A stretch of 64,000 nucleotides of DNA from Antrihabitans stalagmiti (GTDB lineage Bacteria > Actinomycetota > Actinomycetes > Mycobacteriales > Mycobacteriaceae). The notes beneath the pieces were generated by a model. It was not told the DNA's origin. It saw only the letters and a program-made list of their open reading frames with translations, and searched no databases. This document shows, piece after piece, positions 52,612 through 57,538 of the stretch. The stretch covers positions 248,001-312,000 of the forward strand of contig NZ_JAEMNV010000007.1 of NCBI RefSeq assembly GCF_016482825.1, written 5' to 3'. The translations under genes and the position numbers were made by a program. Positions within the stretch are counted from its first letter, which is position 1. Every line of letters begins with the position of its first letter.

Positions 52612-52858
52612 TCACCCGTCTCCTGCAACAGTCACGGCCACGGTCGCACCGAGTTCGTAGCACCGCTCCCGAGTCGTCGCTTCGATCGGACCGACGATCT
52701 CGAGGGTTTCGGCGACCTGTTCGAGGCCGAGCCCGGTCACGATCTTCGTCACCGAGCGGACCGCACCGACGGTGTCGTTGTTGCCGTGTATCCACAATCC
52801 GTACGGTCGCCCGGCCACCTCGTCGAGACACGAGTAGTAGACGGTGTCGACAAAATGC
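52612..52858 (-). pseudogene. 3' part of a split flavodoxin-family gene
   Basis: The frame reads HFVDTVYYSCLDEVAGRPYG ... WIHGNNDTVGAVRSV ... ERCYELGATVAVTVAGDG, the C-terminal half of a small flavodoxin/NADPH-FMN-reductase-like protein. It is co-linear with the intact paralogue at 56817 (YYQILDSTRGRPFGLYLHGN ... ERCWELGATVAAHLMG). Joined at AAATGC to the fragment ending at 57318, it gives one open frame of 153 codons. Upstream of the junction the sequence is foreign. A TTG 11 bases inside the insert could start an 85-residue remnant, but that is unlikely to be functional. Confidence 0.85.
52853..52858. repeat. Left junction repeat AAATGC (attL-like)
   Basis: AAATGC here separates the host flavodoxin 3' part (to the left) from insert DNA. 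The same 6 bases occur at the other junction, 57318-57323. Bases beyond the core differ, as expected for two recombined halves. Confidence 0.65.
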
Positions 52859-53002
52859 CTGTTTCGCAAATTGTCTCACCATAAGTGCCCCGCTGACCAG
52901 CACCTACACTGACTCACGACGTGCACCGACCTGCGAAGTAATCCACACGCGCATCTCGCGAGACTTGGCCGGTAGGCACTCGGTCGCCGACCAGGAGGCC
53001 GA

Positions 53003-53134
53003 GTGCAGGCTGCGACGCGGCCGGAGGCACAGATCGCCGACGTCGAGGCCGAGGCGGCCCCGGTGTTCACCGACCCGTGGTGCGAGATCACGCGATTTCT
53101 CCGCTCCATGGCGCTGTGCGGTGAGCTGCCCTGA
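53003..53134 (+). CDS. Possible 43-residue small protein at the left end of the insert
   Basis: A GTG preceded by AGGAGG with 4-base spacing opens a frame coding for MQAATRPEAQIADVEAEAAP, then a Phe/Trp/Cys-containing tail ending in LCGELP. Only the good ribosome site supports it. It could be the remnant of a larger gene. No family is recognised. Confidence 0.3.
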   Translation: MQAATRPEAQIADVEAEAAPVFTDPWCEITRFLRSMALCGELP

Positions 53135-53203
53135 TCGCCCGGCGGGGGTTCAACCGGTTGACCATGACCATCACCATCGACCGCGTGGGCCGCGGCCGCT
53201 GGC

Positions 53204-54232
53204 ATGAGCCCTCAGACGCGATCACCGTCAACTCGCGCCGTCCTGGCAACGAAGCTTGCCCGTCCAGCAGATCAGCCGCATAAGGTCCTCAATGTGCTGC
53301 TGCTCGACCACCTGCCTACTGCCAACTCTCTACTTCGCCGCGCCGTTCCCGAGATGCTGTATCACTACACAAATTCGGACTCGCTGATCCAAATCGTCAC
53401 CAGTGGCCAAATCTGGGGTGGGCTACCGGAGCAGATGAACGACGCCGAGGAAGTCGCCCGTGCATTTCATTGGCTCAACATCATTGCTGGTCGACTTCAC
53501 CTCGACATGAGGCAGTCCGACGACCGCGACGAGCGTATGCATTTCGCGAGCTGGGCCGAAGGTAGAACTTCGGACAAGGACTTTGGCTACTTAATGCGAG
53601 ACTCACCAAAGACGTATCTGGTATCGCTCTCCCAAGACGGCGACTCACTCTCGCAATGGCGGGCCTACTGTCCCCGCAGCGGCGGCTACTGCTTAGGTTT
53701 ACCCGGCGTGCTGATCCGAGACGCCGCGTCATCTTCGGGGTGGCTGCTAGCCCCCTGCATTTACGACGAGTCCGACGTCGAAGCCATCATGCGCGAGTTG
53801 TTCGAGCACCATATGACGAAGTGGTTCTCGACAATCGACCCCGGTGCGCCTTTCGACCCCGACAACGACTCCTTTACCGACGGCGTCACCGAGGCCGTCC
53901 GCGTGATGGTCGAGGAGGCCCGGCTCGTCGGCCACTTCATCAAGAACCCCACCTTCGAAGCGGAGTGTGAGTGGCGTTTACTGGCTTTTGACCATGACCA
54001 CGACGCCGACGATCTCCGCTACAAGTCAGGCACAGACGGCGTGCGCGTGTTCCTCCCGTTCGACTTCATGGATGGCCACGCCAAGTGCTTTCCAGACACG
54101 CCGCGCCCCTCCGTCCGAATCGGTCCTAACGCTCACCCCGAGAGTGTCAAGTTCGCGACCTCTTCGCTCGTCGAAAAACTCGTTGGACCTGGTAACGCCG
54201 ACGTGTTCATGACGTCAAGTAGCTACCGCTAG
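53204..54232 (+). CDS. DUF2971 domain protein
   Basis: 342 residues from ATG 53204. The DUF2971 core begins at LYHYTNSDSLIQIVTSGQIWGGLPEQMNDAEE and continues with FASWAEGRTSDK, VSLSQDGDSLSQWRAYCPRSGGYCLGL (the F/S-x-S-x-x-x-D-x-x-x-x-W-x-x-Y block typical of the family), then FEAECEWRLLAFD. Such proteins are common in accessory and defence islands; no activity is established. The first 45 residues before the core are atypical, so translation may start further in. Base composition looks less GC-rich than the flanks. Confidence 0.75.
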   Translation: MSPQTRSPSTRAVLATKLARPADQPHKVLNVLLLDHLPTANSLLRRAVPEMLYHYTNSDSLIQIVTSGQIWGGLPEQMNDAEEVARAFHWLNIIAGRLHLDMRQSDDRDERMHFASWAEGRTSDKDFGYLMRDSPKTYLVSLSQDGDSLSQWRAYCPRSGGYCLGLPGVLIRDAASSSGWLLAPCIYDESDVEAIMRELFEHHMTKWFSTIDPGAPFDPDNDSFTDGVTEAVRVMVEEARLVGHFIKNPTFEAECEWRLLAFDHDHDADDLRYKSGTDGVRVFLPFDFMDGHAKCFPDTPRPSVRIGPNAHPESVKFATSSLVEKLVGPGNADVFMTSSSYR

Positions 54233-55770: not shown

Positions 55771-56544
55771 CTATTGCGCCTCCCGTTCGCCGTCGTCGAA
55801 CCGACGCCGGATGCGAAACGCGGCGTTCAGTTCCTCGTCGTCCAGGATGGCGTAGTCATTCTCGATCTGGCGCGCGATGCCCTTGTTGATCCGCGTCAGC
55901 GTCGTCTTGATCTCGCACCGCGCATCGGTCTGGCACACCCCACACTTGCGATCAATTCCCTCAAGCATGTGGTCGACTGTGTACCGGACTAGTACCTCAC
56001 GCCACCGATTGCGAGCAGCGTAAAGGAGCCGTAACCGCTGTTCAGGGTCACCCGAGGTCGGCGAACCTCCGCCCGCTTCCCACAGCGTGATCTCCTCGAC
56101 GAGACCCATATCGAGATCGGTCAGCGTCCGCTCGAACCTGCACGGTACGGCCTCGTGGCACTTTCCGCACTTCCCGGTGCCGTCGTTGGTGATGTGCTCT
56201 TTGGTCAGGTCGACGAGCGCCCTGCTCCACTTCTCCAGCGACGCAGCCATGCGCTCGATCTCGGCGTCGACGTCGATCGCTGGTCTAGGCGGCGGCAACG
56301 GCTTGATTGGCCGCCGAGGCGTCGTTACCACCTTAATTCGGTGTTCGCGACGGATGTGGTCGACGCGGCGGTCGACGCTCACGTGGCGGAGAAGCCTGAG
56401 CTGAACGGCAGCGGAAAGGGGCGTGGCCCAGTCGCGCGCATTGACTTTCGCCTTCGCGCGCGCTGTGAGGTAGGCGTTTCGGTTCAGGCCGTAGTGCTGG
56501 CAAAACTCACGGACTGTTCGACATGGCAAGGGTTCACCGGACAA
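55771..56544 (-). CDS. Novel protein with two H-x8-C-x2-C-x5-C motifs
   Basis: 257 residues. An N-terminal helix-turn-helix-like segment (TVREFCQHYGLNRNAYLTAR) is followed by a basic Pro-rich linker. Two spaced copies of the same metal-ligand pattern come next: HITNDGTGKCGKCHEAVPC and HMLEGIDRKCGVCQTDARC. Each is followed by a T-L-T-x(4-5)-G helix, so the second half is an internal duplication. Zinc binding is probable. The start is a TTG, well supported by AGGAGG 8 bases upstream (56553-56558). I know no named family. Confidence 0.7.
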   Translation of the reverse strand: MSGEPLPCRTVREFCQHYGLNRNAYLTARAKAKVNARDWATPLSAAVQLRLLRHVSVDRRVDHIRREHRIKVVTTPRRPIKPLPPPRPAIDVDAEIERMAASLEKWSRALVDLTKEHITNDGTGKCGKCHEAVPCRFERTLTDLDMGLVEEITLWEAGGGSPTSGDPEQRLRLLYAARNRWREVLVRYTVDHMLEGIDRKCGVCQTDARCEIKTTLTRINKGIARQIENDYAILDDEELNAAFRIRRRFDDGEREAQ

Positions 56545-56816
56545 GGGGTAATCCTCCTGGTGCGTCTACGCGACCAAGACATCACCGACCCCAATGTGAC
56601 CGACCCTTTACTGCGGGGCGCGGGCCACCCTCTAGGCTCTAGCCGTATCGCCAAATACGCGTCGAGCCCTGTCGGAGTCCGCTTTGGCAGGGCCTTCGGC
56701 GTCTCTGAGCAGACCCGGGTAAGCCTGCCGTTGCCATCGTAAGCGGCGGCTCCGACAACCTCCATCACACCTGTGGATAACTCTGCGTTTAACGTGCGAC
56801 ATCCGGATCGAGATCA
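56545..56816. other. Spacer inside the insert
   Basis: 272 bases between the TTG-start gene and the stop of the cargo flavodoxin. It holds the AGGAGG site and presumably the promoter of the zinc-motif gene. No supported gene or strong hairpin is seen. Confidence 0.5.
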
Positions 56817-57269
56817 CTACCCCATGAGGTGCGCGGCAACCGTTGCTCCCAGCTCCCAACACCTCTCCAGGTCCGCCTTCTCAGGCTTGCCGGACACGAT
56901 GACGTTGTCGGCCGCCTTCGCCCACCCGAGGCCGGTAGTGATCGAATCGACTGCGCGTTCAGCTCCCTCAGTGCCCTCGTTGCCGTGCAGGTACAACCCA
57001 AACGGACGGCCCCGAGTCGAGTCGAGAATCTGGTAGTAACTCTGGTCGAACGCGTGCTTGAGGGCACCGGAAATCGACCCGAGGTTCGCGGGGCTGCCGA
57101 GCACGTACCCCTCAGCTTGCAAGAAGTCACTCGCCGACACCGACAGGGCCGGTCGGCGCACGACCTCGACGCCCTCGATCTCGCGGTCGGTTGCGCCGCG
57201 GAGCACTGCCTCGAACATCGCCTGACAGTACGGCGAGGGCGTGTGATGGACAATCAGGAGCTGTGTCAT
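56817..57269 (-). CDS. Complete flavodoxin-family protein carried by the insert
   Basis: 150 residues: MTQLLIVHHTPSPYCQAMFEAVLRG ... LGSPANLGSISGALKHAFDQSYYQILDSTRGRPFGLYLHGNEG. It is a one-domain FMN-binding NAD(P)H-dehydrogenase-like fold. It parallels both fragments of the broken host gene over its full length, at roughly half identity, so it is a diverged homologue and not a duplicate. The ATG overlaps the stop of the truncated host frame as ATGA, with GAGG 9 bases upstream. It should therefore be expressed from the dapB-operon promoter and may replace the lost function. Confidence 0.85.
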   Translation of the reverse strand: MTQLLIVHHTPSPYCQAMFEAVLRGATDREIEGVEVVRRPALSVSASDFLQAEGYVLGSPANLGSISGALKHAFDQSYYQILDSTRGRPFGLYLHGNEGTEGAERAVDSITTGLGWAKAADNVIVSGKPEKADLERCWELGATVAAHLMG

Positions 57270-57534
57270 GCCGCTGACCTCGGTGAATGATTAATAGCGG
57301 GCGAGTTTGGGTGACTTAAATGCGTCAATGCCCCCGACATGTACCCGAAGTTGGCCGAGGAACCGAACAGGTAGCCGTCGGCGGCGAGAACGTCGGATGC
57401 GGTCGCCGACAACGCCGGAACATGTCGGACGTCGACGCCGGTGATCTCCGGATCGTTCGCACCCCGCAACACCGCTTCGAGGACCTCACGCATCGCGGGT
57501 GACGACGTGTGATGAACGACGAGCAGTGTCTTGC

Positions 57535-57538
<4 letters not shown>
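57266..57538 (-). pseudogene. 5' part of the split flavodoxin-family gene, fused to 17 insert-coded residues
   Basis: The first 73 codons ([24 protein letters not shown] ... FGSSANFGYMSGALTH) are the N-terminal half of the host flavodoxin (Rv2771c-like by position). After the AAATGC junction the frame runs into insert sequence (LSHPNSPAINHSPRSAA) and stops at 57266, overlapping the cargo flavodoxin start. The native ATG overlaps the stop of the upstream TPR gene. The FMN-binding fold is incomplete, so the 90-residue product is unlikely to work alone. Confidence 0.85.
57318..57323. repeat. Right junction repeat AAATGC (attR-like)
   Basis: AAATGC at the border between insert (left) and host flavodoxin 5' part (right). 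Its partner is at 52853-52858. Confidence 0.65.

Follow-up and report, generated by a model that had tools for sequence, protein, structure and literature searches.

The dapB operon and its split flavodoxin gene

We analyzed a stretch of 64,000 nucleotides from Antrihabitans stalagmiti (positions 248,001 to 312,000 of contig NZ_JAEMNV010000007.1), hereafter called the window, in which a flavodoxin-like gene behind dapB is interrupted by an insert. The interruption is defined by the following features:

57321..57538, minus strand: 5' fragment of the host flavodoxin/FMN-reductase-like gene, which once joined groups with single-copy genes of the same genus
52612..52857, minus strand: 3' fragment of the host flavodoxin-like gene, located by sequence comparison
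56817..57269, minus strand: carried full-length flavodoxin-like gene of 150 amino acids (aa), about 50 bp inside the border and missed by the first-pass annotation of this DNA
57270..57345, minus strand: attL, with the host half up to the CA at 57321-57322, then the element arm CATTTAAGTCACCC...CGCTATTA and GAGGTC; aligned with the attL of seven relatives
52840..52885, minus strand: attR, with the element arm, the CA at 52856-52857 and the host half; aligned with relatives
52881..53250, plus strand: pseudogene of a large serine integrase, compared with the intact 485-aa integrase L027:2006-3463
57535..58005, minus strand: TPR-like gene with weak TPR Pfam matches below the cut-off; the gene order is conserved in relatives
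58002..58802, minus strand: open reading frame (ORF) of dapB, the host operon context, which precedes the TPR-like and flavodoxin genes in relatives too

The insert is very probably the deletion relic of a satellite-like element with a large serine integrase that carried a full replacement for the flavodoxin gene. The sequence itself shows the attachment site and the split gene, the carried gene and what remains of the integrase, and also the related elements and the deletions collinear with them.

The 5' part of the host gene ends with the CA at 57321-57322 and its 3' part opens with the CA at 52856-52857 on the minus strand. Measured from CA to CA (57322-52857) the insert comprises 4,465 bp, which agrees with the size given by the first-pass annotation. 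Joining the fragments at the common CA yields an open frame (...SGALTHFVDTVYY...) with no stop, and removal of the insert would thus rejoin the flanks in frame, as had been proposed. G001 and G002, which belong to the window's genus, have single-copy genes to which the joined gene is 82% and 80% identical, respectively; a 99-sequence tree places the joined gene with these and with the split gene of genome G265 (100/100). The same-genus genomes G001-G003 contain one flavodoxin match apiece. In relatives, an uninterrupted gene was seen in the same operon of Tsukamurella tyrosinosolvens (NZ_LR134457.1), where it is annotated as NAD(P)H-dependent oxidoreductase and the dapB-TPR order is annotated as well, and the gene is split at the same CA in seven element-bearing relatives. 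Since both parts were located and the joined gene matches the same-genus single-copy genes, the earlier claim of a native flavodoxin gene split behind dapB and the TPR gene holds.

The insert supplies a second flavodoxin-like gene just inside attL. With its open frame, 56817-57269 would provide a complete copy of the target gene after integration, and the ribosome-binding-like GAGGTC within the attL region precedes its ATG. Its match to PF03358 (FMN_red; E 3.4e-5, 23.9 bits) lies just below the cut-off of 24. The gene is 91% identical to the copy in the element of genome G175, with a ratio of nonsynonymous to synonymous substitution rates (dN/dS) of 0.13 against it, and 54% identical to the host's split gene. 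In the 99-sequence tree it clusters with the carried gene of G175 and with g9 genes, while the split gene clusters with the window's own genus. The carried gene probably does the job of the broken host gene and is presumably transcribed from the dapB operon.

Two carriers of the rescue gene were considered and rejected. The carried protein had no match at E<=1e-5 among 50,697 phage records, which speaks against a phage. The best plasmid match (75%, Tsukamurella 'plasmid 15') is a chromosome-like stretch with a normal operon and an empty site. This 51.8-kb record of Tsukamurella tyrosinosolvens, NZ_LR134457.1 (L083), contains dapA, dapB, thymidylate synthase, ribonuclease J, ftsK and an arabinosyltransferase gene, and it resembles a chromosomal segment rather than a plasmid.

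Integrase remains, related elements and the attachment site

According to the first-pass annotation no integrase is visible inside the insert. At the attR end, however, the plus strand carries a degraded large serine integrase (52881-53250), of which residues 1-43 are found in one frame, followed by residues 399-483 (approximately) in two further frames with a stop, and about 360 codons are lost. The DNA is 83-84% identical over 244 and 147 bp to the intact gene of Gordonia jinhuaensis (L027:2006-3463), whose product contains PF00239 and PF07508. A comparison of the intact integrase with the window's whole genome returned the same pieces only, plus a 40-residue match of 22 bits on another contig. 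An intact large serine recombinase with Resolvase and Recombinase domains at one end of the element is thus present in relatives and not in the window; as the window holds only the pseudogene, it represents a relic and not a working member. In phage records, all integrase matches were below 60% identity (860 records), and the integrase alignment, when used to scan viral contigs, found one weak relative (27%).

We searched 401 genomes of the family, drawn evenly from a larger group, with the integrase and obtained matches at E<=1e-60 in 33 genomes. Target sites were compared in flanks no longer than about 1.5 kb, in part shortened by contig ends; five further matches without a locus were excluded. 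The target site follows the integrase clade: integrases 65-100% identical to that of G. jinhuaensis lie beside a split flavodoxin gene in 7 of 7 cases, those at 36-48% in none of the 23 fetched. Intact-integrase elements at the same CA of the flavodoxin gene therefore occur in 7 of the 401 genomes. Bearers include Gordonia jinhuaensis CGMCC 1.12827 (G009), Rhodococcus sp. HNM0563 (G228), Tsukamurella spumae DSM 44113 (G094) and Tsukamurella asaccharolytica HKU71 (G181). A further integrase (65%) lies beside the flavodoxin 3' part in Mycobacterium sp. 141, where that end was read. Among 397 genomes drawn from the order, only G094 matched at E<=1e-120.

The loci were read over 39 kb around six of the seven elements and over 16.5 kb for G009. 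Each of the seven shows the order dapB, TPR gene, flavodoxin 5' part, element, flavodoxin 3' part, and the full elements are 11.9 to 15.3 kb long. A full flavodoxin gene stands at the attL end in six of them; the seventh (G009) keeps only the first 20 or so residues. Prim-Pol and DUF5906/D5-like genes were found in the G009 element and a DUF3987/helicase-like gene in that of G353; the full elements also hold a second small resolvase and an M50B-like ORF below the cut-off. Among the proteins scanned, which represent part of the ORFs (ten of G353 against PHROGs, eight of these against Pfam, and nine of G009 against Pfam), there was neither a virion structural match nor a relaxase or FtsK/TraB-like transfer gene. 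Because replication genes are present and no virion gene was recognised among those scanned, we call the full elements satellite-like, a designation that follows from their predicted gene content. The window insert contains no recognised replication gene.

Two observations concern the contents of individual elements. A 260-aa protein of the G353 element (L073:7315-8097, minus strand) matches phrog_779, a family with no assigned function, at E 1.8e-95, which ties the element to phage genomes. In G228 (L071) and G395 (L095) the rescue gene is separated from attL by an extra reading frame (182 aa in G228), which begins at the conserved ribosome-binding-like sequence of the element; cargo may thus be loaded at this end too.

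The crossover lies at the CA in the Lys-His codons of a GALKHAFD motif. As reported in the first-pass annotation, both borders of the window share AAATGC (GCATTT on the coding strand), a block of 6 bp. In the seven relatives the block common to both borders measures 2-5 bp and contains the CA in every case. Their reconstituted attB follows the consensus ...CTCAA[A/G]CACGC[C/G]TTCGAC..., and the attP arms are conserved as well, with the Gordonia/Rhodococcus type reading ...GAGTTTACG...AATAAACATTTGAGTTGCGATAACCCCGCTATTA and a different right arm in Tsukamurella. In the window's genus TTT is native to attB, as G001 reads GAAGCATTTCTTC, and TTT also opens the attP arm of the element (CATTTAAG/CATTTGAG). 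The shared block of the window is longer than that of the relatives because TTT both follows the CA natively and starts the attP arm. AAATGC is not a target-site duplication; the block consists of the CA and neighbours that are native on the host side and present in the attP arm. The window thus has attL and attR with a short common core, a single crossover and no long repeats. For prophage serine integrases of Mycobacterium abscessus, a common core of 5-8 bp is stated in the available part of PMC8092301. Site-specific insertion into the flavodoxin gene, as first proposed, is strongly supported by the elements with other cargo that use the same crossover point.

The same CA is also occupied in G265 by an insertion of about 19.5 kb (L105/L106; G265:C19:25500-50000) with its own serine integrase, 27% identical, and without a flavodoxin copy. 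It contains several ORFs of 388-939 aa and gives the impression of a prophage. A different integrase at the same CA indicates that the site attracts another integrase and that disruption without rescue is tolerated there. In G002 (L036) the single-copy flavodoxin of the window's genus reads GGLKVFFD, with the CA core changed to GT; either the replacement has been completed here, or this host allele resists the integrase.

The presence of two adjacent flavodoxin genes might alternatively be explained by a tandem duplication, followed by an unrelated insertion into one of the copies. Yet the copies share 54% identity and sit on different branches of the tree, the second copy lies inside the element and at the same end in six of the seven intact-integrase elements, and G001-G003 have one match each. 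We consider such a duplication extremely improbable.

Regulated excision that restores an interrupted gene is exemplified by skin and SP-beta, and the element might likewise be a switch whose excision repairs the host gene on demand. On paper the frame can be restored exactly, and to this extent the earlier claim that excision restores the gene exactly stands. The integrase of the insert is dead, however, the short forms show loss of mobility genes, and a full second gene comes with the element from the start, so that the gene function is not switched off and is probably already provided by the carried copy. A regulated switch is thus very improbable.

Deletion forms and possible gene replacement

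A stretch of 3,958 bp in the window, from the carried gene to the 3' fragment, was compared with the full element of G353. It aligns in four collinear blocks of 71-82% identity that cover 60% of the stretch, and between the blocks about 3.2, 7.2 and 1.1 kb of G353 sequence are absent from the window, the last gap being the loss inside the integrase. Judged from this collinearity, the window insert is a deletion form of a full element. Similarly, G395 is a shortened G228, with one 2.4-kb block at 91% that covers 98% of the stretch.

Besides the flavodoxin gene, the insert keeps three cargo genes:

55771..56544, minus strand: gene for a 257-aa protein; a homologue (88%) adjoins the full flavodoxin gene in the relic of G215
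54877..55734, plus strand: gene for a 285-aa protein; homologues (71-73%) adjoin the carried flavodoxin gene in the element of G353 and the relic of G233
53204..54232, plus strand: gene for a 342-aa protein with DUF2971 (PF11185, E 7e-7, 30.9 bits)

The search for this cargo in other genomes thus revealed homologues at the same gene site in G353, G233 and G215. A homologue of the DUF2971 gene, 82-85% identical, adjoins the integrase in G353, and the G353 counterparts of this gene and of the 285-aa gene (71%) occupy the same places as in the window; the DUF2971 gene has no match in the three same-genus genomes. dN/dS amounted to 0.09 for the 257-aa gene and to 0.14 and 0.09 for the 285-aa gene, the latter value with saturated dS. 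Values of 0.09-0.14 for the cargo and the carried flavodoxin indicate that these genes were functional over most of the period since they diverged from their relatives. DUF2971 is the only Pfam assignment above the cut-off among the window cargo, and the 257-aa protein matched neither Pfam above the cut-off nor PADLOC. A defence role of the cargo was considered and found not convincing, as the best PADLOC match (the DUF2971 protein) had E 0.003.

The first-pass annotation had interpreted the insert as a recombinase-less cassette moved in trans, possibly of a new family of cargo islands. An integrase-less cassette could still move in trans with the integrase of a full element: the borders of the window are still recognisable, in G395 (3,476 bp) both the attL and the attR arm can be recognised and no integrase was detected, and G328 (3,440 bp) keeps both borders together with integrase fragments. 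The window, however, keeps integrase debris, no such integrase was found elsewhere in its genome, and its attP arms have drifted from the consensus. Moreover, when the 11 short forms that have a 3' fragment were compared, no pair aligned over more than 49% of an insert, and the best pair did so in parts that full elements share. A moving short form would give common deletion points. The points relative to full elements differ among the window, G395, G328 and G233, which disfavours movement in trans, and we regard it as very unlikely for the window. There the earlier interpretation is not supported, since the insert has its own integrase debris and corresponds to a full element shortened by deletions, with the order of the remaining parts kept; a recombinase-less cargo island is not supported in view of this debris and of the lack of a short form common to the 11 compared. 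Short forms elsewhere, such as G395 with both of its arms recognisable, may still move in trans.

Further deletion forms were found among the 401 genomes, 24 of which have at least two flavodoxin matches. Three of the 24 were set aside, namely G364 (second match on another contig), G265 (other element) and G009 (truncated carried copy). The remaining 21 combine a full copy and native fragments at one locus and comprise the window, the six intact-integrase elements and 14 others. Shorter forms with broken integrases are present in G233 and G328, and intermediate shorter forms in G395, G085, G349, G269, G312, G324 and G088. The full copy follows the TPR gene directly in G215, G259, G375 and G416 and after 0.56 kb in G239; in these five the 5' fragment was not detected, and a 3' scar lies downstream, separated by 0.7-4 kb of other DNA. 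In G157, which was counted as single-copy, a 5' scar beside the gene ends at the same residue. The search was extended to 59 genomes from the genus of G353, 7 of them new, and to 150 from that of G349, 98 of them new. Two or more matches occurred in none of these 105 additional genomes; G755 and G760 showed a weak match only and G793 none.

Carried and native copies within one genome are 54-89% identical (11 cases computed). G228, G353, G233 and G395 represent three genera, yet their carried copies form one cluster of the tree (98/76) inside a group of mostly g9 genes, and the full copy of G239 clusters with the carried copies of Tsukamurella (100/99). These identities and the tree grouping indicate that the element brings a foreign allele, which decay can leave as the sole complete one. 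Integration plus decay, as reconstructed from these loci, can end in gene replacement. The single flavodoxin gene of G003 (L034), from the window's genus, is placed on the other branch of the tree and is 53% identical to the window's split gene and 74% identical to the carried one; no scar was detected beside it, and it is possibly a completed replacement.

We propose the following course of events. The large serine integrase of the element would enter the fixed CA of the flavodoxin-like gene behind dapB and split the host gene. The foreign flavodoxin gene that it brings just inside attL would be complete and have a start and a ribosome-binding-like sequence of its own, and the operon would thereby keep an intact last gene. 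In the window genome, most of the integrase and the replication region would later have been lost, whereas the three cargo genes and the replacement gene would have been kept and the element fixed in place. Transfer may involve the integrase and a phage- or conjugation-aided route.

Several findings weigh against this account. No full element with exactly the gene set of the window was found, and among the loci compared the 257-aa gene occurs otherwise only in the relic of G215. In G375 and G416 the full copy is placed among single-copy genes of its own genus, and a foreign origin is unsupported there. In addition, the need for a flavodoxin rescue is doubtful, as G009 with its truncated copy and G265 without a copy have no other full copy at E<=1e-6. 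The gene is probably not essential, and rescue may therefore be a benefit and not a need. Separately, a 3' flavodoxin scar lies downstream of the native-looking full copy in both G375 (L103) and G416 (L104).

Recoding of the attachment motif was compared between 65 single-copy genes, mostly best matches to the window's copy and hence not a random sample, and 16 carried copies. GALKH[AF]FD is kept in 63 of the single-copy genes and altered in 2, while 8 of the carried copies have altered motifs, namely GALKHGLD (three), GALKHGFD (two), GGLKHGLD (two) and GGLKVAFD (one, with CA changed to GT and the core destroyed). The excess had a raw Fisher p of 1.5e-5 but corresponded to only 6 changes on the tree and to 1.5 to 0 in independent pairs; with relatedness taken into account it was not significant. 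In the window, the carried copy still reads GALKHAFD. At none of the DNA positions do the attB sites in use differ consistently from the copies carried by the six full-copy elements, and in G353 only 4 of 56 positions distinguish the carried copy from the element's own attB, which argues against immunity as a general rule. That recoding makes the rescue copy immune to its own integrase may be regarded as a good hypothesis, not a result. A recoded rescue is an idea used in engineered gene drives, of which a 'break-and-rescue' element would be a natural counterpart: the integrase would break the host allele, the site of the rescue copy would be recoded against cutting, and after decay the foreign allele would replace the native one and resist the integrase. 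We put this scenario forward tentatively and consider it possible, albeit doubtful.

Comparison with known systems

The element belongs to a known kind, the satellites and islands with a large serine integrase, and its full rescue copy is a variant for which we found no description. Among the literature matches listed, none reported serine-integrase elements in this gene or such elements with a full-length gene that rescues a chromosomal target, which is not proof of absence. The elements form a family in Gordonia, Rhodococcus, Tsukamurella and probably further genera that breaks a chromosomal gene, carries a full replacement and can leave a swapped allele. They provide a concrete route for replacing a core-operon gene by a foreign version, and their naturally matched triplets of attB, attP and rescue site offer a means to ask how an integrase avoids the element's own copy of its target.

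The AICEs are actinomycete integrative elements with Prim-Pol replication genes, and their integrase is usually of the tyrosine type. The G009 element resembles them in its Prim-Pol and DUF5906/D5-like genes and that of G353 in its DUF3987/helicase-like gene. Unlike AICEs, the elements described here use a serine integrase, and no FtsK/TraB-like gene was present among the scanned G009 and G353 proteins.

Large serine integrases that insert within an ORF are described in the accessible part of PMC8092301 for Bxb1, in groEL1, and for the MabI and MabJ prophages of Mycobacterium abscessus. In the portions available, PMC8092301 and PMC5704250 describe serine-integrase elements as disrupting their target genes, and in the excerpt of PMC10654092 the reconstitution of the gene targeted by one such system is left open. 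Our elements share the large serine integrase, the short common core and the split ORF with the prophages as portrayed in that part of PMC8092301; they differ in that a full replacement gene travels with the element and no structural phage genes were recognised among the scanned proteins.

In the available sections of PMC10111431, attP is said to usually hold a replacement sequence for the target. The helper-embedded phage-inducible chromosomal islands (HE-PICIs) do not follow this rule according to the same sections, and one of them, 11capE, has its own capsid gene, referred to as a 'backup intact copy'. Like 11capE as described there, the satellite-like elements of this family interrupt a gene of which they bring a homologue of their own. 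Unlike 11capE, which targets a late gene of a prophage with an integrase of another clade, it uses a large serine recombinase and a chromosomal metabolic target, the copy lies at the attL end in six of seven intact-integrase elements, and decay can end in replacement of the host gene. Preservation of the target function after integration, which is presumed for our elements, is shared with target-restoring elements, that is, islands in tRNA genes (Islander, PMC4383910) and elements in icd (PMC10111431), as far as the available text of both sources goes. In these, part of attP makes a hybrid gene, whereas in the elements described here a whole separate gene is delivered and the host gene stays broken.

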